From positions 1-41,645 of IMG/VR virus record IMGVR_UViG_3300020156_000052: a stretch of 41,645 nt of DNA, one strand, 5' to 3'. The stretch is from a virus. The position numbers and the translations under genes were made by a program. Positions 19,481-39,575 of this stretch are shown here, one piece after another. The stretch's first letter is position 1; each line of letters begins with the position of its first letter. The notes under the pieces were generated by a model that saw only the letters and a program-made list of their open reading frames with translations, did no database searches and was not told the DNA's origin.

Positions 19481-19725
19481 CCACACCGCGCCCCACCGTG
19501 GGCCGGATCGTCCACTACGTCAGCCACGGCACGCCACCCCGGTCCGACGGGACGCAGGCGTACACCTCCCAGTGCCGCGCGGCCATCGTCACCGAGGTGG
19601 GCGAGAACCGCATCGTCGGCCTGTGCGTGCTCAACCCCGAGGGCCAGTTCTTCAACCGCGGCGTCCACCACCAGGAGGACGAGCACGCGGGCGGATCCTG
19701 GCACTGGCCGGAACGCGAGGACTGA
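19477..19725 (+). CDS. Conserved small actinophage protein of unknown function (82 aa)
   Basis: The pattern VGRIVHYVSHGTP, then CRAAIVTEVGE, then VGLCVLNPEGQFF and GGSWHWPERED is recognisable as a family widespread in actinobacteria and their phages. Its molecular role is unknown to me. The compact beta-rich layout and lone conserved Cys and Trp-His suggest a small-ligand or protein-binding module. It is the last gene of the rightward late region, closely followed by a strong terminator. Confidence 0.75.
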   Translation: MTTPRPTVGRIVHYVSHGTPPRSDGTQAYTSQCRAAIVTEVGENRIVGLCVLNPEGQFFNRGVHHQEDEHAGGSWHWPERED

Positions 19726-19739
19726 CCCACCACAGACAG

Positions 19740-19773
19740 GAGCCCGGCCCCTACTCGCTCAGGGGCCGGGCTC
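19740..19773. terminator. Bidirectional terminator between converging transcription units
   Basis: A perfect 13-bp stem (GAGCCCGGCCCCT and its complement) with an 8-nt loop lies between the last rightward late gene (stop at 19725) and the end of the leftward operon (stop at 19788). The symmetry and convergent context indicate termination from both sides. Confidence 0.85.
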
Positions 19774-19787
19774 CGCCACGTCCGGGG

Positions 19788-20018
19788 TCAGCAGGTGGTG
19801 TAGTTCGCCGCGATGACGATCCCCCAACTCACCGTCCACACCGACGCGCCCAGCGTCACCGACCCCGCGATCCCCGACACGATCCGCTCGGCGATGGTGT
19901 TGGTCCGCTCCAACGCCAGGGACACGAGGATGGAGCTGGCCCACACGAAACCGAGGCAGAGGCAGGCGGCCAGGATGATGGGCATGGCGCCCACCCCCGC
20001 CGGCAGGGTGATGGTCAC
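19788..20018 (-). CDS. Small two-helix membrane protein (76 aa)
   Basis: GTG start inside the end of the upstream gene (GTGA-type coupling). Two hydrophobic helices: about residues 10-33 (AMPIILAACLCLGFVWASSI) and 47-70 (VSGIAGSVTLGASVWTVSWG), with a short polar loop and a C-terminal Cys. Family not recognised. It is the last gene of the seven-gene leftward operon from 21701, which is rich in membrane proteins, and lies just before the shared terminator. Confidence 0.6.
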   Translation of the reverse strand: MTITLPAGVGAMPIILAACLCLGFVWASSILVSLALERTNTIAERIVSGIAGSVTLGASVWTVSWGIVIAANYTTC

Positions 20019-20440
20019 CGGATCGTCACCTTCTGGACGATGGTGATGGTGCGCCTGCCGAGCAGCAGCGCGAGCACCGCGAGGCCGCCGAGCACCATCG
20101 GCCAGGAGACCGCGGCCAGCAGCGCGGCGGCAGCGGCGAACGCCTGGACCAACAGGGCGGCCACCATCCCGAGCACGGCCAGGGAGGCGCACCCCCACAG
20201 CAGCGGGGCCCGCCACCGCGGCGGCCTGGCCCGCACCCGCTCCACGTGCGCCTCCCACTCCCCGGTGCGTGCGTTCAGCGTGAGCGCCCCGGCCCGCCGG
20301 TATTCCTGGCGTCGGTGGCCGCGGCGCAGCTCCTTCAGCACGTCCGCCCGGGTGCCGACGATCAGCTCCCGGGCGAGGACGGGAGCCTCGGTGCGGGCCA
20401 CCTGGGCGGGCCGCCGGACGGCGACGTCGCGGGGGATCAT
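20015..20440 (-). CDS. Membrane protein with basic cytoplasmic domain (141 aa)
   Basis: The ATG at 20440 is chosen because GGAGGT lies 5 nt upstream, overlapping the stop region of the GIY-YIG gene; an upstream in-frame ATG (20452) lies inside that gene. Residues 1-78 are soluble and Arg-rich (LARELIVGTRADVLKELRRG). Two membrane helices occur at about 80-108 and 111-128, and the C-terminus is a basic strand-like tail RRTITIVQKVTIR. Family not recognised. Probably works in the membrane with the neighbouring small proteins. Confidence 0.65.
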   Translation of the reverse strand: MIPRDVAVRRPAQVARTEAPVLARELIVGTRADVLKELRRGHRRQEYRRAGALTLNARTGEWEAHVERVRARPPRWRAPLLWGCASLAVLGMVAALLVQAFAAAAALLAAVSWPMVLGGLAVLALLLGRRTITIVQKVTIR

Positions 20441-20442
20441 CT

Positions 20443-20961
20443 CTACCTCCATGGTTCGGTGAGGGCCAGGGCGGCGACCGCCACCACCGCCACGGCGGAG
20501 CCGATGGCGACCCGCCTGGCGGTGTGTGCCGCGCGGTGCAGGGCGGTGGTGGTGCGGATCCACAGCCCGGGGTCGGACAGCAACCGGTCCCGGTTGCGGC
20601 GCTGGAGCGCCTGTACGTGCCGGGGGATGCGCCGCGGGTTCCACCGGTTCTTGGCATCGTTGTACCGCGGCCAGGTGAGCAGGATGGCCAGGGTCTCCAG
20701 GGGGCGGAGCACCCACTTCCAGCCGAGCCACCAGGGGAGCCGGAGCACGTGCCAGCGGGGGCGCAGGTCCGCCCAGTCCTTGGCCGCGTGCCCGTACCGG
20801 CCCCGGCCGAGGTGGTCCAGGCCGCGCATCTCGACGTGCACGCTCTCGCCCACGTAGCCGTTCTCCCGGCGTCCGGGCTTGAGGTGCCGGTCCGTGCGCA
20901 CCAGGTAGATGCCGGGGCGGCGCCGCTTGCACTTACGCCACCAGGCCGCCGGGGTGTTCAT
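20443..20961 (-). CDS. GIY-YIG nuclease-fold protein with C-terminal membrane anchor (172 aa)
   Basis: Residues about 16-103 match the GIY-YIG endonuclease fold: PGIYLVRT (G17-I18-Y19), NGYVGES (Y36-V37-G38), Arg46 ten residues after Tyr36, His50 four residues later (MRGLDHL), an E in RPLETLAILL (Glu89) and Asn101 in WPRYNDAKN. The Y-to-R and R-to-H spacings equal those of I-TevI (Y17, R27, H31), so it is probably active, cutting DNA with a metal ion. A basic linker follows, then a hydrophobic helix at about 151-168 (AIGSAVAVVAVAALAL). This would tether the nuclease to the membrane, unusual for this family. ATG overlaps the upstream stop (ATGA). Confidence 0.75.
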   Translation of the reverse strand: MNTPAAWWRKCKRRRPGIYLVRTDRHLKPGRRENGYVGESVHVEMRGLDHLGRGRYGHAAKDWADLRPRWHVLRLPWWLGWKWVLRPLETLAILLTWPRYNDAKNRWNPRRIPRHVQALQRRNRDRLLSDPGLWIRTTTALHRAAHTARRVAIGSAVAVVAVAALALTEPWR

Positions 20962-21131
20962 CGGCCCGCCGCCCATCGCAGGAAGATTCCGGCCACCCGG
21001 CCGCGGGCGATGATCCGTCCGCACGTGGCGCACCGCCACAGACCAGCGGGGTGGGCGGGGTGATAGGCCACGTCCGTGCGGCCCGGCCGCATCCGGACCG
21101 CGTGGTGGTGCCTGCCGGACAGGATGGTCAC
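20958..21131 (-). CDS. Small basic His/Cys protein (57 aa)
   Basis: GTG start overlapping the upstream stop (GTGA), preceded by GGAGGTGCTGCT; its own TGA overlaps the next ATG. It has a His-rich start (GRHHHAVRMRPG), a WRCATCGRII pair and further His residues, so a small zinc-binding fold is possible. It ends with an amphipathic helix (GIFLRWAAGR). Found from exact overlaps on both sides rather than length. Function unknown. Confidence 0.55.
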   Translation of the reverse strand: MTILSGRHHHAVRMRPGRTDVAYHPAHPAGLWRCATCGRIIARGRVAGIFLRWAAGR

Positions 21132-21298
21132 AGCAGCACCTCCCAGCAGCCGAGCCCCGTCACGAACCGGGCCGCGCCCCGGGCTGTGAGGCGCCGGAGC
21201 GCGCGGCGCTCCAGGTAGTTGGCGGGCATCACCCGGCGCCAGCGCGAGAGGTGGGCGCGCTCCACCAGCAGGGCCTGGCGCCGGCCGAGGGGCCTCAC
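21128..21298 (-). CDS. Small Arg-rich protein (56 aa)
   Basis: GTG start overlapping the upstream TGA (GTGA); its own stop overlaps the next GTG. It is very basic (LLVERAHLSRWRRVMPANYL, then ERRALRRLTARG) with a hydrophobic C-terminus ending GCWEVLL. A nucleic-acid or membrane-surface role is possible. The chain of four-base overlaps in this operon is the best evidence that it is translated. Confidence 0.55.
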   Translation of the reverse strand: MRPLGRRQALLVERAHLSRWRRVMPANYLERRALRRLTARGAARFVTGLGCWEVLL

Positions 21299-21462
21299 GG
21301 ACGCATCCTGGCTACGTCGATGGCGACGCGCACGCCCGTGGCGAGCACCACCGAGCCAGCGACCACCAGCGGGCGCTCGGCGTAGGTGACCCCGAACGAG
21401 ACGCACAGGACGCCGAGCAGGACGACGAAGGAGGCCAGCCACTCCAGGGCGCGCACTTTCAT
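21295..21462 (-). CDS. Small two-helix membrane protein (55 aa)
   Basis: The ATG is preceded by AGGAGG and overlaps the upstream stop (ATGA). Two hydrophobic stretches, about residues 8-27 (WLASFVVLLGVLCVSFGVTY) and 31-48 (PLVVAGSVVLATGVRVAI), are separated by a short polar turn. It ends with a basic tail. This size and layout recall the tiny Spd-type membrane proteins in Streptomyces plasmid spread operons, but no specific family is proven. Confidence 0.6.
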   Translation of the reverse strand: MKVRALEWLASFVVLLGVLCVSFGVTYAERPLVVAGSVVLATGVRVAIDVARMRP

Positions 21463-21701
21463 CGCCGGGCCTCCTGGGCGTGCAGGATGGCGGGGTAGGC
21501 CAGGGCCATCAGCAGGCCGAGGGCTTGTGCCGCGTCCAGCTCCATCAGCTTCGTCAGCGACTCGGTGGCCAGCAGCATGGCCGCGTGGTCCACGTCTCCG
21601 TCGGTGGCGGCCAGGGCGTTCTGGCCCAGCTCGGTGACGCTCTCCATGATCTGGGCCCGGCCCTGATCAAGGGACGCTCTCATGCCGGGGTGCATCTCCA
21701 C
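21459..21701 (-). CDS. Small helical protein, first gene of the leftward operon (80 aa)
   Basis: GTG start with AGGAGG 5 nt upstream. Soluble, helical; LDQGRAQIMESVTELGQNAL, then DHAAMLLATESLTKLMEL and a final hydrophobic helix. Family not recognised. It is first in the operon driven by the extended -10 promoter at 21781-21789, with about 70 nt of leader that can form a GC-rich hairpin. Confidence 0.6.
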   Translation of the reverse strand: MEMHPGMRASLDQGRAQIMESVTELGQNALAATDGDVDHAAMLLATESLTKLMELDAAQALGLLMALAYPAILHAQEARR

Positions 21702-21769
21702 GTTCTCCTCCTGAAACGTTGAGGCCCCGGCAGTGCGGCGGGATTCATCTCCTGCGCCGCCCCGCCGGG

Positions 21770-21792
21770 GAGCTACCTCCACTATAGCAGAG
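21770..21792 (-). promoter_or_regulatory. Extended -10 promoter (TCTGCTATAGT box) for the leftward seven-gene operon
   Basis: On the minus strand CCTCTGCTATAGTGGAGGTA contains TG-C-TATAGT (21781-21789) flanked by matching arms (CCTC/GAGG). The predicted start lies about 7 nt past TATAGT, near 21774, giving a leader of roughly 70 nt before the first GTG. The downstream leader has the inverted pair CCCCGG/CCGGGG. A 14-bp palindrome (GGTCAGTTCTGACC, 21795-21808) lies just upstream and is a candidate operator. Confidence 0.7.
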
Positions 21793-21797
21793 GATGG

Positions 21798-22013
21798 TCA
21801 GTTCTGACCAGAAGCCATCCACTTCAGGATGAGCACCAGGCAGCGCAGGCGGCAGGACTTCCCGGCCGTGACCCTGGTCACCGTGGAGGTGGATACTCCG
21901 ATGGCCGCCGCCGCTTGAATCACCGTCAGGCCCCGCCGCTTGCGCTCCGCCGGCAGGGAGGTGCGCAGGTCCTCCACGATCTCGGCCGCTCGCTTGTAGT
22001 CAGTTCTCGTCAC
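21798..22013 (-). CDS. Small HTH transcriptional regulator, Kor-like by position (71 aa)
   Basis: The helix-turn-helix is at about residues 29-54: LTVIQAAAAIGVSTSTVTRV follows a basic helix (PAERKRRGL). The GTG at 22013 is chosen because a TACCCT -10 (22020-22025, minus) lies exactly 6 nt upstream, predicting a leaderless mRNA; an upstream GTG at 22049 is possible. It diverges from the FtsK/Tra-like gene across a region of repeated GTGAC half-sites. In Streptomyces plasmids, divergent Kor regulators repress tra genes in this geometry. That function is inference from context. Confidence 0.68.
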   Translation of the reverse strand: MTRTDYKRAAEIVEDLRTSLPAERKRRGLTVIQAAAAIGVSTSTVTRVTAGKSCRLRCLVLILKWMASGQN

Positions 22014-22072
22014 GCGGCCAGGGTAGCGCAAAGGTGACCTGATGGTCACATGTGACGTAAGCTGGAGAGATG
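22011..22072. promoter_or_regulatory. Divergent promoter-operator between the HTH gene and the Tra-like gene
   Basis: It contains a perfect 12-bp palindrome GTCACATGTGAC (22045-22056) plus a third GTGAC half-site (22034-22038). Facing each way is a GTGACC -35-like hexamer with an 18-nt spacer to a TANNNT -10: TAAGCT (22058-22063, plus) and TACCCT (22020-22025, minus). Each -10 is followed after 6 nt by a start codon. A regulator on the palindrome would cover both -35 regions. Confidence 0.65.
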
Positions 22073-23935
22073 CCTGCCAACATGATCAGTACCCACCGTC
22101 AGCGGGTGCGCGTCCCCTGGGTGGTGCGCGCGCCCTGGCGCTACCTGGTGACCGGGGGATACGTCCTCAGCGAGGGGGACAACGCCAGCTTCCTTCATGA
22201 CGCCACCGAGGACTTCCGCGGCAAGCCGGTCCTCAAGCTCACCCGCGCCCGCTGGCGCCGGGTGGCCCGCCGCAACGCGGCCACCACCGTGCCGCTGGCC
22301 CTCGCCCTGTTCGCGCCGAGCTGGGCCGTGCTCGCGTGGGGGTTCCTGGTGGCCGCTGGCGCGCTGGCGTGGATCGGCCGGGAGCTGTGGCTGGCCGTGC
22401 GGGACGTGCTGCTCCGGCGCCGGATCAACCGGGAGTTCGTGTACCCGGCGGGCGAGGTGGCCTGCTCCATCCTCAACATCCGGTTCAGCAAGAGCCGGGC
22501 CCGGACCATGCTCCAGCTCCCCCGCTCCTGGGGAGCCATGGTCGCCGAGGAGGGCGAGACCCCGGCGGCCACCCTGATGATCCCCTCCGGCAAGGTGCTG
22601 GACACCGGGACCAAGAAGCGGATCACCGAGCAGGTGGGCGCGCGCCTCGGGATCAAGAGCCCGGCCGCGGAGTGGCACGAGACCGGCAGCCGGGTGCTCG
22701 CCGTGCTGAAGCCCAACCCCGCCCCGCCCCGCGAGGTGCCGATCGTCCCGTTCCTGAAGGCGGCCATGGCCCTGCCGGACACCGAGGTGGCGGTGGGGCG
22801 CGACCCCGCCGGCCGACTGGCCACCATCTCCCTGGCCGAGGACTCCCCGCACGTGGCCATGTCCGGCGCGTCCGGCACCGGCAAGAGCGTGCTGGGAAAG
22901 CTGGCTATGGCGCAGCGCCTCCACAACGGAGACGGCCTGATCATCGCGGACCCGAAGAAGTTCAGCCACTGGCGGTGGGCGGGTGGCGGGAAGCTCCCGG
23001 CGGACCGGGTGGTGTACGCCTACCGCACCGAGGACATCCACCGCATGTGGCTGGCCGTGGCCGCCGAGGCCGAGCGGCGGATCGAGCTGGACGAGGAGGA
23101 GCTGGAGCAGCAGCGCCGGGTGTGGGTGATGGCCGAGGAGCTGAACACCCAGCGCCCCCGCCTGGCCCGCTACTGGAAGGGCGAGCGCAAGCGGATCATG
23201 AATGCGGCCAAGGCCAGGCTGGCCGACGCGGTGGACAGGTGCGAGGGCAGCCTGGCCGACGGCCTCGCCCTGGCCATCGCCGAAGGGCTGGACGAGGCGG
23301 ACCTGGACCCGCCCACCACCTCCCCGGCCATCACGGCCATGCAAGAGAGCGTGTTCATGGGCCGGGAGATCCGGATGCACGTGGTGGTCATGGCGCAGCG
23401 CCTGTCCGCCAGCGTGTTCGGCCCGAACGGCGGGGACGTGCGGGAGAGCTTCCAGGGCGGGCGCCTCATGGCCAAGTGGGACCGGAAGCTGTGGCGGATG
23501 CTGGTGGACGGCCTGGACTACGTGGCCTGTCCGTCCGGCCCCCGCGGCATCTGGGGGATGGCCAAGGGGGACGACTTCACGGTGTTCCGTGTCCCCTTCC
23601 TGTCCGATGTCCAGGCCATCGAGCTGGCCACGTCCGGGGCGCCGGCCACTGGCCCTGTCCTCGGCCCGCAGGTTGGCCACCCGGTGCTGGACATGGACAG
23701 CGAGCTGGCCACCGAGCGCGCGGCCATCACCCGGGGTGTCCCGTTGTCCGTGGCCGTTGGCCAGCTCCCGGCCAAGCCGGACGGGAGCGAGTGGACACTG
23801 GAGGCGCTGCGGTCGGCCAGCAAGCGGCCGGGGTTCCCGGTGGCCATCGGCCGGGACGGGGATGGCCAGTCCGCCCCGAGGTTGTGGGACATGGCCGACC
23901 TGATGGCCTGGGCCGGAGCCGAGCTGGACGAGTAG
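22070..23935 (+). CDS. FtsK/SpoIIIE/Tra-like membrane DNA translocase (621 aa)
   Basis: N-terminal domain with a membrane region at about residues 72-104 (ATTVPLALALFAPSWAVLAW and following), then a helical section, then a RecA-type ATPase: Walker A GASGTGKS (266-273), the FtsK-like strand GDGLIIADPKK, and the VVMAQRLSAS motif that follows the catalytic core in FtsK/TraB proteins. A clear Walker B Asp-Glu is hard to place. A long helical insert (ELDEEELEQQRRVWVMAEEL) interrupts the core. Such proteins pump double-stranded DNA; in Streptomyces plasmids a single one suffices for conjugation. It stands alone, right of a divergent regulator, and ends at a strong terminator. Confidence 0.85.
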   Translation: MPANMISTHRQRVRVPWVVRAPWRYLVTGGYVLSEGDNASFLHDATEDFRGKPVLKLTRARWRRVARRNAATTVPLALALFAPSWAVLAWGFLVAAGALAWIGRELWLAVRDVLLRRRINREFVYPAGEVACSILNIRFSKSRARTMLQLPRSWGAMVAEEGETPAATLMIPSGKVLDTGTKKRITEQVGARLGIKSPAAEWHETGSRVLAVLKPNPAPPREVPIVPFLKAAMALPDTEVAVGRDPAGRLATISLAEDSPHVAMSGASGTGKSVLGKLAMAQRLHNGDGLIIADPKKFSHWRWAGGGKLPADRVVYAYRTEDIHRMWLAVAAEAERRIELDEEELEQQRRVWVMAEELNTQRPRLARYWKGERKRIMNAAKARLADAVDRCEGSLADGLALAIAEGLDEADLDPPTTSPAITAMQESVFMGREIRMHVVVMAQRLSASVFGPNGGDVRESFQGGRLMAKWDRKLWRMLVDGLDYVACPSGPRGIWGMAKGDDFTVFRVPFLSDVQAIELATSGAPATGPVLGPQVGHPVLDMDSELATERAAITRGVPLSVAVGQLPAKPDGSEWTLEALRSASKRPGFPVAIGRDGDGQSAPRLWDMADLMAWAGAELDE

Positions 23936-23949
23936 CGCCCTGGACGTGC

Positions 23950-23985
23950 GAGGGCCCCGCTCCGGGGAAGTGGAGCGGGGCCCTC
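23950..23985. terminator. Bidirectional terminator
   Basis: Perfect 14-bp stem (GAGGGCCCCGCTCC with complement at 23972-23985) and 8-nt loop, between the convergent FtsK/Tra-like gene (stop 23935) and the DUF6011 gene (stop 23993). Confidence 0.85.
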
Positions 23986-23992
23986 GCTGGCT

Positions 23993-24379
23993 CTACAGCT
24001 TGCCCGCGCAGACCGGCCCGATGCCGCGGGCGATGCTGGCCTCGTCGGTGAGCGGGGCCAGGCAGCGCACGCACTGGCCGTACAGGTGGCCGTACTGGGC
24101 GGCCTGCTCCAGCGTCATGCGGTCGGCGGGGCGCAGGTGGTTGACCATGCCGGGCTCCAGCACCCACTCCCCCTCGCGCAGGGCCAGGGCGTACGGACGG
24201 CCGGACCCGTGCAGGGCCAGCTTCACCTTGTACGGGGTGCCGTTGACCAGGTACATCCCCTCGGCCGCGGGCTCCCGGCGCCGCGCCGACCGGGCTAGAG
24301 CGGGGGCAGGGGAGGCGCAGGAGCGCACCTCGGCGACGGTGGAGTGGGTGCCCTTGCAGTGGCCGCATCGGATCGTCAT
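23993..24379 (-). CDS. DUF6011 zinc-binding protein, leaderless gene (128 aa)
   Basis: The C-terminal about 35 residues (YGQCVRCLAPLTDEASIARG followed by IGPVCAGKL) match DUF6011, a small Cys-rich module common in actinophages. The N-terminus has another pair MTIRCGHCKGTHS and a later Cys, so two zinc sites are possible. The start ATG lies exactly 6 nt after TATAGT with no ribosome site, predicting a leaderless mRNA. An upstream in-frame ATG (24421) would overlap the promoter and is rejected. Function of the family is unknown. Confidence 0.75.
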   Translation of the reverse strand: MTIRCGHCKGTHSTVAEVRSCASPAPALARSARRREPAAEGMYLVNGTPYKVKLALHGSGRPYALALREGEWVLEPGMVNHLRPADRMTLEQAAQYGHLYGQCVRCLAPLTDEASIARGIGPVCAGKL

Positions 24380-24402
24380 ACCCCGACTATAGCAGACGTA
24401 CG
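24380..24402 (-). promoter_or_regulatory. Extended -10 promoter for a leaderless transcript (TCTGCTATAGT box)
   Basis: Minus strand reads GTACGTCTGCTATAGTCGGG; TGCTATAGT occupies 24386-24394. The ATG of the DUF6011 gene follows TATAGT after 6 nt, where transcription should begin. The -35 is weak, as expected for an extended -10. Confidence 0.75.
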
Positions 24403-24413
24403 GGCAAGGGGAA

Positions 24414-24443
24414 AGCCCCACCGGGAGGTGACCCAGCGGGGCT
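24414..24443. terminator. Weak terminator-like hairpin
   Basis: AGCCCC (24414-24419) pairs with GGGGCT (24438-24443), with an inner GGG/CCC pairing. It lies between the end of the DUF2637 gene (stop 24485) and the next minus-strand promoter, so it may end that transcript. There is no U-run. Confidence 0.45.
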
Positions 24444-24484
24444 GACCCATGCTGCCTGACCTGGGGTTTGCACCCCCTGTTGGC

Positions 24485-25291
24485 CTAGGCCATGTCGTCC
24501 GCGTCGGCGGTGGGGAACAGGGCCGCCCTGGCCCGCCGGACGGTGCGGTCGCTGACCTCGTACACCGTGGCGATCGCGGTGTCCACGGCCTTCACGCTGA
24601 TCCCGAGGTTCACCAGCTCCACGATCAGGTCCATGGCCTCCTCGTCCAGCTTCCCGCGCGGCCCCCGCTGGGGGCCGGGGCTCACCGGCACCGCGGCCAC
24701 CGGCACCGCCGGGGTGGTGGTGCTGTCCGCCTCGCTGGCCAGCCTGTCCCACACCGACGTGGCCAGCCACTGCTCCGCCTCGCTGGCCAGCTTCACGCCG
24801 TCGGCGGCCACCATGTCCTGGACGGCCGGGCGGGTGGCCATCACGTCCGTGGCCATGGCCGACGCCCGGCTGGCCATCCCCCTGGCCTCCGAGATGCGGG
24901 TGAGGGCCACGGTGGCCATGGCCATCATGCCGTCGATGGCCAGCGGGCCCAGGTAGGTGGACAGCTTGTCGTACCCGTAGCTGGACAGGACGTGGGCCAG
25001 GTGCCAGTAGGACACCCAGGCAGCGATGAAGGCCACCAGGCCGAGCCCGGCCCAGCGGGCCAGCCTGTCCTTGGCCCGGTTAGCCCACGGGGTGTGGAGC
25101 ATGATTTCGATCAGGATGAACAGGGCCGCCGGCCAGAACACGGCGGACAGGTGGGCACCGATCCCGGGGGTGGCGTTGTCCAGGTGGATGGCCTGGACAT
25201 TCCCGCCGATGGAGGTGCCGATGCCGATGGTGAGGGCCAGGCGGCCCCACACCAGGGCCTTGCGGTACGGGCGGACGGTGGTCTCGCTCAT
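24485..25291 (-). CDS. DUF2637 membrane protein, Spd-like (268 aa)
   Basis: Four membrane helices at about residues 13-30, 47-65, 79-98 and 112-130, with hallmarks of DUF2637: ISGN-like SIGGNVQAIH, WVSYWHLAHVL and LGPLAIDGMM. The C-terminal half is cytoplasmic, Ala-rich, and ends in an HTH-like segment (ISVKAVDTAIATVYEVSDRT, about 236-255). DUF2637 proteins occur in Streptomyces conjugative elements as spread proteins (Spd/SpdB-type) that move the plasmid between mycelial compartments. The ATG has GCGAGGAG upstream; the transcript should start near 25347. Here it sits near the Tra-like ATPase. Confidence 0.82.
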   Translation of the reverse strand: MSETTVRPYRKALVWGRLALTIGIGTSIGGNVQAIHLDNATPGIGAHLSAVFWPAALFILIEIMLHTPWANRAKDRLARWAGLGLVAFIAAWVSYWHLAHVLSSYGYDKLSTYLGPLAIDGMMAMATVALTRISEARGMASRASAMATDVMATRPAVQDMVAADGVKLASEAEQWLATSVWDRLASEADSTTTPAVPVAAVPVSPGPQRGPRGKLDEEAMDLIVELVNLGISVKAVDTAIATVYEVSDRTVRRARAALFPTADADDMA

Positions 25292-25341: not shown

Positions 25342-25366
25342 GCTGATACGTCGACTATAGCAGACG
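25342..25366 (-). promoter_or_regulatory. Extended -10 promoter within a perfect palindrome
   Basis: TACGTC and GACGTA arms (25347-25352 and 25363-25368) flank the TATAGT core (25354-25359 on the minus strand), forming a 6-10-6 inverted repeat. TTGCGC lies 18 nt upstream as a -35. The predicted start is near 25347, giving about a 55-nt leader with a ribosome site before the DUF2637 gene. Confidence 0.72.
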
Positions 25367-25481: not shown

Positions 25482-26423
25482 TCAAGCCACCAGCGTGGCC
25501 AGGATGGCCTTGGCCATCGGGGGCGGGACCGCGTTGCCCACCTGGAGCGTGCGCTGGCCGATGCGGCCTTGCACCGGGTAGTCCGCCGGGAAGCCCTGGA
25601 GGCGGAGCACGTCCGCGGTGGACACGCGCAGGCTCTTGCCTCCCGCCGACCACATCTCGCCGCCCCCGGCCCAGGCCGCCGGTCCAGCCTCGTATGCCTC
25701 GCGCATCGCGCGCCTGGCCCCGTTGCCGAATAGCTCCACTCCGCCGCCGGAGCCCGTACCGCCCGCGGTGACAGACATGCTGGCGCGGTCCGTGAAACCC
25801 CATTCCAGCGCCTCGGCCATCGTGATCTCGCGCTCCACCGTGGGCCCGGGGAGCTGGGCCACCTTGCCGTCCGAGCGGGCCATCAGCACCGCGCGCTTAC
25901 GCCGCTGGGGCACCCCATAGCGCTGGGCGTGCAGCACCCCCGTGGCCACGCTGTATCCGCGTTCGCGGAGCACAGCCGCGCACGCCTTCCAGACCGGGAG
26001 CACCGTGGGGACCTGCTCCCAGGCCAGGTAAGGCGCCCCGCCGGCAAGGGCCAGGCGCAGAGGCTCCAGCACCAGAGCTGTTCGGGGGTCCGAGGTGGCC
26101 TGGCTCATGCGGCTGCGGACCTCGGACGGGGCCACCCCCTGGCCGTACATGGCCACCCCGTCCAGCACGTGCTGGAGATCCTGGCGGCCCTTGCCGTACC
26201 CCGCGATGGAGAAGGTCTGGCACGGCGGGGAGCTGATCTCCACGTCGTACATGCCCGGGAGCGCCGGGCATTCCAGCACGTCCTTGCCCAGCGTTCCCAG
26301 GCCAGCCTCCCGGCGCGTCTCGCGCGCAACGGGCAGGATCTCCCAGGCGTCCACGGTCCAGCCCAGTTCCAGGGCGGCCAAGTCCCACCCACCGATCCCT
26401 GCGAATGTGTCTCTCGCTCTCAT
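25482..26423 (-). CDS. DNA (cytosine-5) methyltransferase, orphan
   Basis: Methylates cytosine in duplex DNA using S-adenosylmethionine. At 313 aa it has the ordered C5-MTase motifs: I DTFAGIGGWD (residues 5-14), IV SSPPCQTFS with catalytic Cys68, VI AWEQVP (Glu136, EQV in place of ENV), VIII QRRKRAVL (173-180) and X LQVGNAVPP. No restriction endonuclease is adjacent, so it probably protects phage DNA or marks it. The ATG lies exactly 6 nt after TATAGT with no ribosome site, so the mRNA should be leaderless. It stands alone between its own promoter and terminator. Confidence 0.93.
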   Translation of the reverse strand: MRARDTFAGIGGWDLAALELGWTVDAWEILPVARETRREAGLGTLGKDVLECPALPGMYDVEISSPPCQTFSIAGYGKGRQDLQHVLDGVAMYGQGVAPSEVRSRMSQATSDPRTALVLEPLRLALAGGAPYLAWEQVPTVLPVWKACAAVLRERGYSVATGVLHAQRYGVPQRRKRAVLMARSDGKVAQLPGPTVEREITMAEALEWGFTDRASMSVTAGGTGSGGGVELFGNGARRAMREAYEAGPAAWAGGGEMWSAGGKSLRVSTADVLRLQGFPADYPVQGRIGQRTLQVGNAVPPPMAKAILATLVA

Positions 26424-26446
26424 CCGTCCACTATAGCAGAGGTACG
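26424..26446 (-). promoter_or_regulatory. Extended -10 promoter for the leaderless methyltransferase gene
   Basis: Minus strand: CCTCTGCTATAGTGGACGG then ATG. TGCTATAGT is at 26430-26438; 6 nt separate TATAGT from the ATG at 26423. A TTGTCC hexamer lies 16 nt upstream. Arms TCCGT/ACGGA flank the core. Confidence 0.78.
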
Positions 26447-27276: not shown

Positions 27277-27297
27277 ACGTCGACTATAGCAGACGTA
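27274..27297 (-). promoter_or_regulatory. Extended -10 promoter in a palindrome, leaderless start
   Basis: ATACGTC (27275-27281) and GACGTAT (27292-27298) are 7-bp inverted arms around TATAGT (27283-27288, minus). The start codon of the 59-aa gene overlaps the downstream arm, so a protein bound to the palindrome would block both transcription start and initiation codon. Confidence 0.75.
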
Positions 27298-34480: not shown

Positions 34481-34543
34481 ACCCACACTATAGCAGACGA
34501 GCAGAGTTGACCGCAACGGCCGTACCTCTGCTATAGTAGACGC
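34481..34543. promoter_or_regulatory. Back-to-back extended -10 promoters for two leaderless genes
   Basis: TATAGT occurs at 34487-34492 (minus) and 34532-34537 (plus), each preceded by TCTGC and each followed after 6 nt by an ATG (34480 minus, 34544 plus). TTGCGG lies 18 nt behind the minus core and TTGACC 19 nt behind the plus core. This is the hub that launches both replication operons. Confidence 0.82.
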
Positions 34544-39557: not shown

Positions 39558-39575
39558 CACTGCTATAGTAGAGGT
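39541..39575 (+). promoter_or_regulatory. Promoter with -35 and extended -10 for a leaderless gene
   Basis: GTGACA (39541-39546), 17-nt spacer, TGCTATAGT (39561-39569), then 6 nt to ATG 39576. This is the most complete promoter of the family. A second TATAGC copy lies at 39553-39558. Confidence 0.8.

Follow-up and report, generated by a model that had tools for sequence, protein, structure and literature searches.

A plasmid-type gene set for a predicted membrane DNA translocase, with an intragenic hexamer array, in a family of phage genomes

The stretch of DNA analysed here (the window) is the whole of IMG/VR virus record IMGVR_UViG_3300020156_000052, 41,645 bases long with a GC content of ~71%. 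Its left part encodes the small and large terminase subunits, portal, major head protein, tail genes and an amidase, and its right part a Prim-Pol and helicases. The large terminase shares ~35% identity with its counterparts in phages of Gordonia, Mycobacterium and Arthrobacter, and a megablast of the window against 50,697 phage records gave no match. An earlier note on this DNA had proposed that a group of genes within it forms a plasmid-like module with which the phage may move its own DNA, or which it has put to another use such as exclusion. This module, the subject of the present analysis, consists of a membrane ATPase, a DUF2637-family membrane protein and a membrane-anchored GIY-YIG nuclease (Table 1), and we compared it with ~20 related IMG/VR contigs of up to 46 kb, with which the window forms a family of soil phages. 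L and G numbers (e.g. L005 or G000-G017) denote the records or loci compared, most of which are phages; L009 is a plasmid.

In the ATPase, membrane helices at the N-terminus are followed by a motor domain, in which the GASGTGKS and EE motifs lie, and by a C-terminal helix-turn-helix (HTH)-like domain. The Walker A sequence GASGTGKS and the EE motif are conserved in the family, and 19 of its 24 members give FtsK_SpoIIIE matches. The AlphaFold model, made with 12 sequences in the input, has a mean pLDDT of 72.6; its best fold match is the conjugation coupling protein TcpA (Z 23.4 over 314 residues, model residues 122-526), followed by the FtsK motor (Z 21.2). The nearest named sequence relatives are pRL2-11/DUF87 plasmid proteins, nearly all from Streptomyces, with 25-29% identity (E 2e-23 for plasmid pRL2-11 proteins, 81% of the query covered), and the C-terminal domain is common to these relatives. 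A profile of phage motors and a few plasmid motors reaches pIJ101 Tra weakly, at 26.6 bits, and in a tree the phage motors split from the plasmid motors with support of 97/94. The fold matches and the pRL2-11 homology agree with the earlier description of a membrane FtsK/Tra-like protein, which by both sequence and fold groups with plasmid and conjugation translocases rather than with packaging ATPases. We conclude that it is an FtsK/TcpA-type DNA translocase, its translocation activity being predicted from sequence and model.

The second protein was assigned at the family level: 13 of 17 members match Pfam DUF2637 (PF10935), with a best value of 1.2e-11, while the window copy itself falls below detection at the 0.1 limit, so that the earlier DUF2637 assignment holds for the family. 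The pRL2-11-type motor gene is immediately preceded by a DUF2637 gene on plasmids pRL2, pFRL3 and pFRL6; the DUF2637-ATPase pair is thus a plasmid gene pair, which bears out the plasmid-like nature proposed before. Plasmid L009 and phage L028 have, upstream of the motor, a multi-helix membrane protein with an HTH-like C-terminus and no Pfam match. L028 is a 38-kb virus record with a tyrosine integrase and a motor relative, and its upstream membrane protein has four helices. Adjoining the DUF2637 gene of the window is a C5 cytosine methylase gene (25482-26423, minus strand), for which no homologue was found in related loci.

The model of the third protein (pLDDT 90) matches the GIY-YIG domain of UvrC with Z 8.3 over 81 residues and I-TevI with Z 7.6; the Foldseek E-values are weak, and Pfam gave no GIY-YIG detection for the window nuclease. 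Residues G17, Y19, Y36, G38, R46, E89 and N101 are invariant in 20 of 20 phage members. The protein thus has the GIY-YIG fold and catalytic residues, with nuclease activity predicted, and together with the single C-terminal membrane helix the two fold matches confirm the membrane-anchored GIY-YIG nuclease that had been noticed from the letters.

Every related IMG/VR contig extending across the locus has all three genes, which mostly keep a fixed order and lie between the lysis genes and the leftward replication/recombination block; where a module gene is missing, this coincides with a contig end. The motors diverge from that of the window down to 25-30% identity, and the nuclease stays at 45-54%. 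For the window terminase, by contrast, a relative could be detected in no more than 7 of 19 records (counting the window), and the module is therefore more constant than the packaging genes. In L068, L069 and L071, the three genes are co-directional in the order DUF2637, motor, nuclease. Profiles for tyrosine integrase, resolvase-type recombinase and ParA (PF00589, PF00239 and PF13614) gave no match in G000-G017, with working controls; a TrwC-type relaxase was not found in 15 phage records, and no further conjugation component was recognised in the window. Phages of another type, L023, L026 and L027, have a related motor with a GIY-YIG gene nearby downstream, upstream of terminase- and portal-like genes; by Pfam the GIY-YIG gene of L026 and L027 is MUG113/T5orf172.

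Going beyond the earlier note, we found a new feature of the locus, an array of short repeats inside the module genes. Instead of searching with the published clt consensus, we made an unbiased k-mer comparison between the motor-DUF2637 region and the rest of each locus, which gave a single dominant hexamer in most phages: TGGCCA in the majority, CGGACA in L005, L045, L046, L047 and L064, and TGGACA in L021. In a 44-kb contig, 43 of the 56 TGGCCA sites lie within ~3 kb, and in two further complete contigs the array region holds 38 of 58 and 49 of 94 sites, the latter distributed as 26 in the motor gene, none between the genes and 23 in the DUF2637 gene. In each complete contig tested, the window included, the array is the strongest hexamer cluster of the genome, and the copies lie mostly in variable linkers that precede C-terminal domains. 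When the codons of each gene were shuffled synonymously 300 times, the hexamer count of most motor and DUF2637 genes tested exceeded the maximum of the shuffles, and the copies occur in all three reading frames; for both reasons selection acts on the DNA. In the window, both counts are just above the shuffle maximum (11 TGGCCA against 5.0 in shuffles for the motor gene, 9 against 5.5 for the DUF2637 gene). The nuclease gene showed no hexamer enrichment over synonymous shuffles, and the distant phages L023, L026, L027 and L028 have no strong array at the locus.

The identity of the hexamer suggests which protein may read it. The recognition helix of the DUF2637 HTH ends in RWR in ten phages with TGGCCA (weakly in L067) and in RWL in the five with CGGACA (RRWL in four, SRWL in L047); L011, L014, L035 and the window have other residues at the helix end or mixed motifs. 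The motor C-terminus of L049 resembles those of L045 and L047, yet this phage has TGGCCA and RWR, while L005 has a motor of the TGGCCA clade, yet CGGACA and RWL. The motif copies within the motor gene switch along with the DUF2637 HTH as well. These comparisons are suggestive of a motif that follows the HTH of the DUF2637 protein and not the motor C-terminus, but no more than suggestive: the phages are related, and the count overstates their independence.

Repeats at this position also occur in plasmids. In a Streptomyces goshikiensis plasmid, CGGAAC is found 34 times, within the linker of the gene for its HTH membrane protein and in the gap immediately ahead of the motor gene. The DUF2637 and motor genes of pFRL3 are separated by a 1-kb gap with dense repeats of CTGCAC and CTGCTC, and pRL2 has a smaller CGGACA cluster; two of the plasmids examined have clear arrays at the locus. 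In the described transfer systems, clt loci consist of a few short repeats beside tra that are bound by the FtsK-like Tra protein (PMC3583192), TraB interacts with SpdB2, a DNA-binding integral membrane protein, and SpdA2 of pIJ101 binds a palindrome within its own gene and affects stability (PMC4170104).

The nuclease gene belongs to a leftward operon, which the earlier note had described as seven genes for tiny membrane proteins; the seven genes are there (21701-19788), but only four of the seven products have a predicted membrane helix. A strong inverted repeat at 19722-19791, between the convergent lysis and leftward operons, is likely a bidirectional terminator. The operon is preceded by a GGTCAGAACTGACC palindrome (21796-21809) and the -10-like element CTGCTATAGT, of which the window has eight exact copies (21781-21790, 24386-24395, 25354-25363, 26430-26439, 27283-27292, 34487-34496, 34528-34537 and 39560-39569) where 0.2 are expected with one mismatch allowed. 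Several of these sites are followed within ~6 bases by an ATG, which suggests that the transcripts are leaderless, and a TACGTC...GACGTA inverted repeat is present at some. The element is absent from the structural region, and the ATPase gene lacks it.

The earlier note had also pointed to a small divergent HTH gene with a shared operator, in view of the divergent Kor regulator that controls Tra in Streptomyces conjugative plasmids. The divergent HTH gene exists, and the gap between it and the ATPase gene contains the palindromes GGTGACC-TGAT-GGTCAC (22033-22049) and GTCACATGTGAC (22045-22056); given these and the GGTCAGAACTGACC palindrome before the operon promoter, a shared operator is plausible. 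However, the related contigs gave no homologue of this HTH gene, which places it outside the conserved module, and Kor-type control as a general feature was not upheld.

Table 1. Genes and sites at the module locus, in window positions
Feature	Position	Strand	Basis
FtsK/TcpA-type membrane ATPase, 621 amino acids	22070..23935	+	Open reading frame, G+C at third codon positions 0.96
DUF2637-family membrane protein, linker and C-terminal HTH; putative array reader	24485..25291	-	Family Pfam matches
GIY-YIG nuclease, one C-terminal membrane helix (tail anchored)	20443..20961	-	Fold and helix prediction
3' part of ATPase gene, 8 of its 11 TGGCCA sites (others at 22818, 22854, 23271)	23469..23868	.	
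Nine TGGCCA sites in DUF2637 gene linker; top hexamer cluster of the window	24736..24942	.	
Small HTH regulator gene, divergent from ATPase, start 22013 or 22049	21798..22013	-	HTH_3 match, 1.5e-5
Operator-like inverted repeats in 56-bp divergent gap	22033..22056	.	
Operon promoter: GGTCAGAACTGACC palindrome and CTGCTATAGT -10 element (21781-21790)	21781..21809	-	
First operon gene, 80 amino acids from GTG 21701 (78 from ATG 21695), no membrane helix predicted	21459..21701	-	
55-amino-acid protein, two predicted membrane helices	21295..21462	-	
56-amino-acid protein, no membrane helix predicted	21128..21298	-	
57-amino-acid Cys/His protein, no membrane helix predicted	20958..21131	-	
Two-helix membrane protein adjoining nuclease gene; homologues in most relatives	20015..20440	-	
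75-amino-acid membrane protein, final operon gene	19788..20015	-	

We give about even chances to the reading that the module is a plasmid-type, site-specific, membrane-bound system that translocates double-stranded DNA and acts on the phage's own genome; the presence of a candidate cis-acting site array makes translocation of the phage's own DNA more likely. The DUF2637 protein would bind the array and tether the phage genome to the membrane, and the motor would load at the array and drive the DNA through a channel in the membrane. Also at the membrane, the nuclease may trim or cut DNA, replicating concatemers for example. Before lysis, the phage DNA might then pass through septa or into adjacent hyphae, much as plasmids of Streptomyces spread by means of Tra, Spd and clt. 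By analogy with the plasmid relatives, we consider such spread the likeliest use of the module, and it is also the least supported step. A fuller version can be offered more tentatively, as possible rather than probable: phages without a recognisable integrase or partition gene may pass their genomes between hyphal compartments or cells free of virions, by means of a plasmid-derived machine and a self-carried array that is read by a membrane protein and whose code has repeatedly switched. The idea that the phage moves its own DNA with a plasmid-like module thus keeps its plasmid-type ATPase, its plasmid gene pair and a site array, but general Kor-type control and a plasmid counterpart for the nuclease found no support.

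Several observations weigh against translocation of the phage genome by this module. No plasmid homologue of the GIY-YIG nuclease was found, and most plasmids examined have no clear array. The array of the window is modest (20 copies where 6 are expected), and none was found in L068, L069 and L071 although the three genes are present there. L021 breaks the motif rule, with RWR and TGGACA, and CGGACA has no strand polarity of the kind considered for KOPS-like sites. None of 84,980 genomes has a relative, and no cultured phage in the collection has the module, the sole related cultured-phage protein there being a short ATPase of Streptomyces phage Dagobah; the family is known from sequence records.

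Other functions were weighed against the same data. For superinfection exclusion or defence, the tail-anchored nuclease would cut incoming DNA at the membrane while the motor pulls, and the array would mark or protect the phage's own DNA. This has a precedent in SNIPE, a membrane-anchored GIY-YIG nuclease that cuts phage DNA during injection (PMC13190303), although the DUF4041 of SNIPE was not detected here. In 20 of 20 members the GIY-YIG site retains its G/Y, Y/G, R, E and N positions, and in other phages a related motor has a MUG113/T5orf172 GIY-YIG gene as its neighbour; both favour a defensive cut. However, exclusion needs neither a site array nor the plasmid DUF2637-motor pair. Genes for exclusion also tend to vary, whereas the related contigs that extend across the locus have this module without exception; we regard exclusion as rather unlikely but, with the tether considered next, as a main rival. 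Also unlikely, in our view, is membrane tethering or segregation within one cell, for replication or distribution, with the array as a centromere or membrane attachment site. A motif that tracks the membrane protein's HTH and not the motor, the lack of strand polarity and the precedent of the pIJ101 SpdA2 palindrome (PMC4170104) are all consistent with a tether, but a dedicated translocase and a nuclease exceed its needs, and with neither ParA nor integrase found, there is no sign of long-term maintenance.

We consider it very improbable that the array arose as a by-product of protein composition, or marks a packaging site, and that the module is an otherwise unrelated accessory set. Many copies do fall in linkers of low complexity with much Ala, Gly and Gln, but counts that beat synonymous shuffles in most genes and the use of all three frames argue against a coding artefact. 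The P1 pac hexamers are likewise located inside a gene; however, phages that share a motif here differ in their match to the window terminase, which a packaging site should track, and we judged a packaging role unlikely.

If translocation of the phage's own DNA by the module is true, phages of filamentous actinomycetes would spread by two routes, virions and direct DNA passage, and the boundary between phage and conjugative plasmid would be blurred. The arrays give the plasmid-borne DUF2637 proteins, so far of unassigned function, a concrete and testable role as membrane-anchored, site-specific DNA binders, and the natural motif switches may help to decipher their recognition code.

Among known systems, the Streptomyces linear plasmids pRL2, pFRL3 and pFRL6 share a homologous translocase and a neighbouring DUF2637 protein, and some plasmids a dense array at the locus; unlike in these plasmids, the two phage genes face each other and have other genes nearby, the array is inside both of them, and the set includes a GIY-YIG nuclease as well. 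The Tra/Spd/clt systems of pIJ101, pSVH1 and pWTY27 combine one FtsK-like membrane translocase, a membrane DNA-binding helper and short repeated recognition sites that adjoin or overlap tra (PMC3583192, PMC4170104); the motor, the predicted DNA-binding membrane protein and the hexamer arrays of the phage would correspond to these. The phage system differs from them in the weak similarity to pIJ101 Tra, in having far more sites, in the position of these sites within coding sequence and in a Kor regulator that is not conserved. TcpA, the coupling protein of Clostridium perfringens pCW3, is the closest solved fold over residues 122-526; the phages differ in that the window has no further recognisable conjugation component and that the 15 phage records gave no TrwC-type relaxase. 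Conjugal transfer genes on a phage genome have a reported precedent in the Streptomyces plasmid-phage pZL12, as it is cited in passages of PMC3583192 and PMC7157519; pZL12 is an extrachromosomal prophage with ParAB (PMC4487206, PMC7157519), unlike the present phages, in which neither ParA nor integrase was detected. SNIPE, finally, resembles the module in that a GIY-YIG nuclease is anchored to the membrane where DNA passes or would pass, but it is a bacterial protein for defence that has DUF4041 and an N-terminal anchor, whereas the present nuclease is C-terminally anchored, phage-encoded and linked to a motor.

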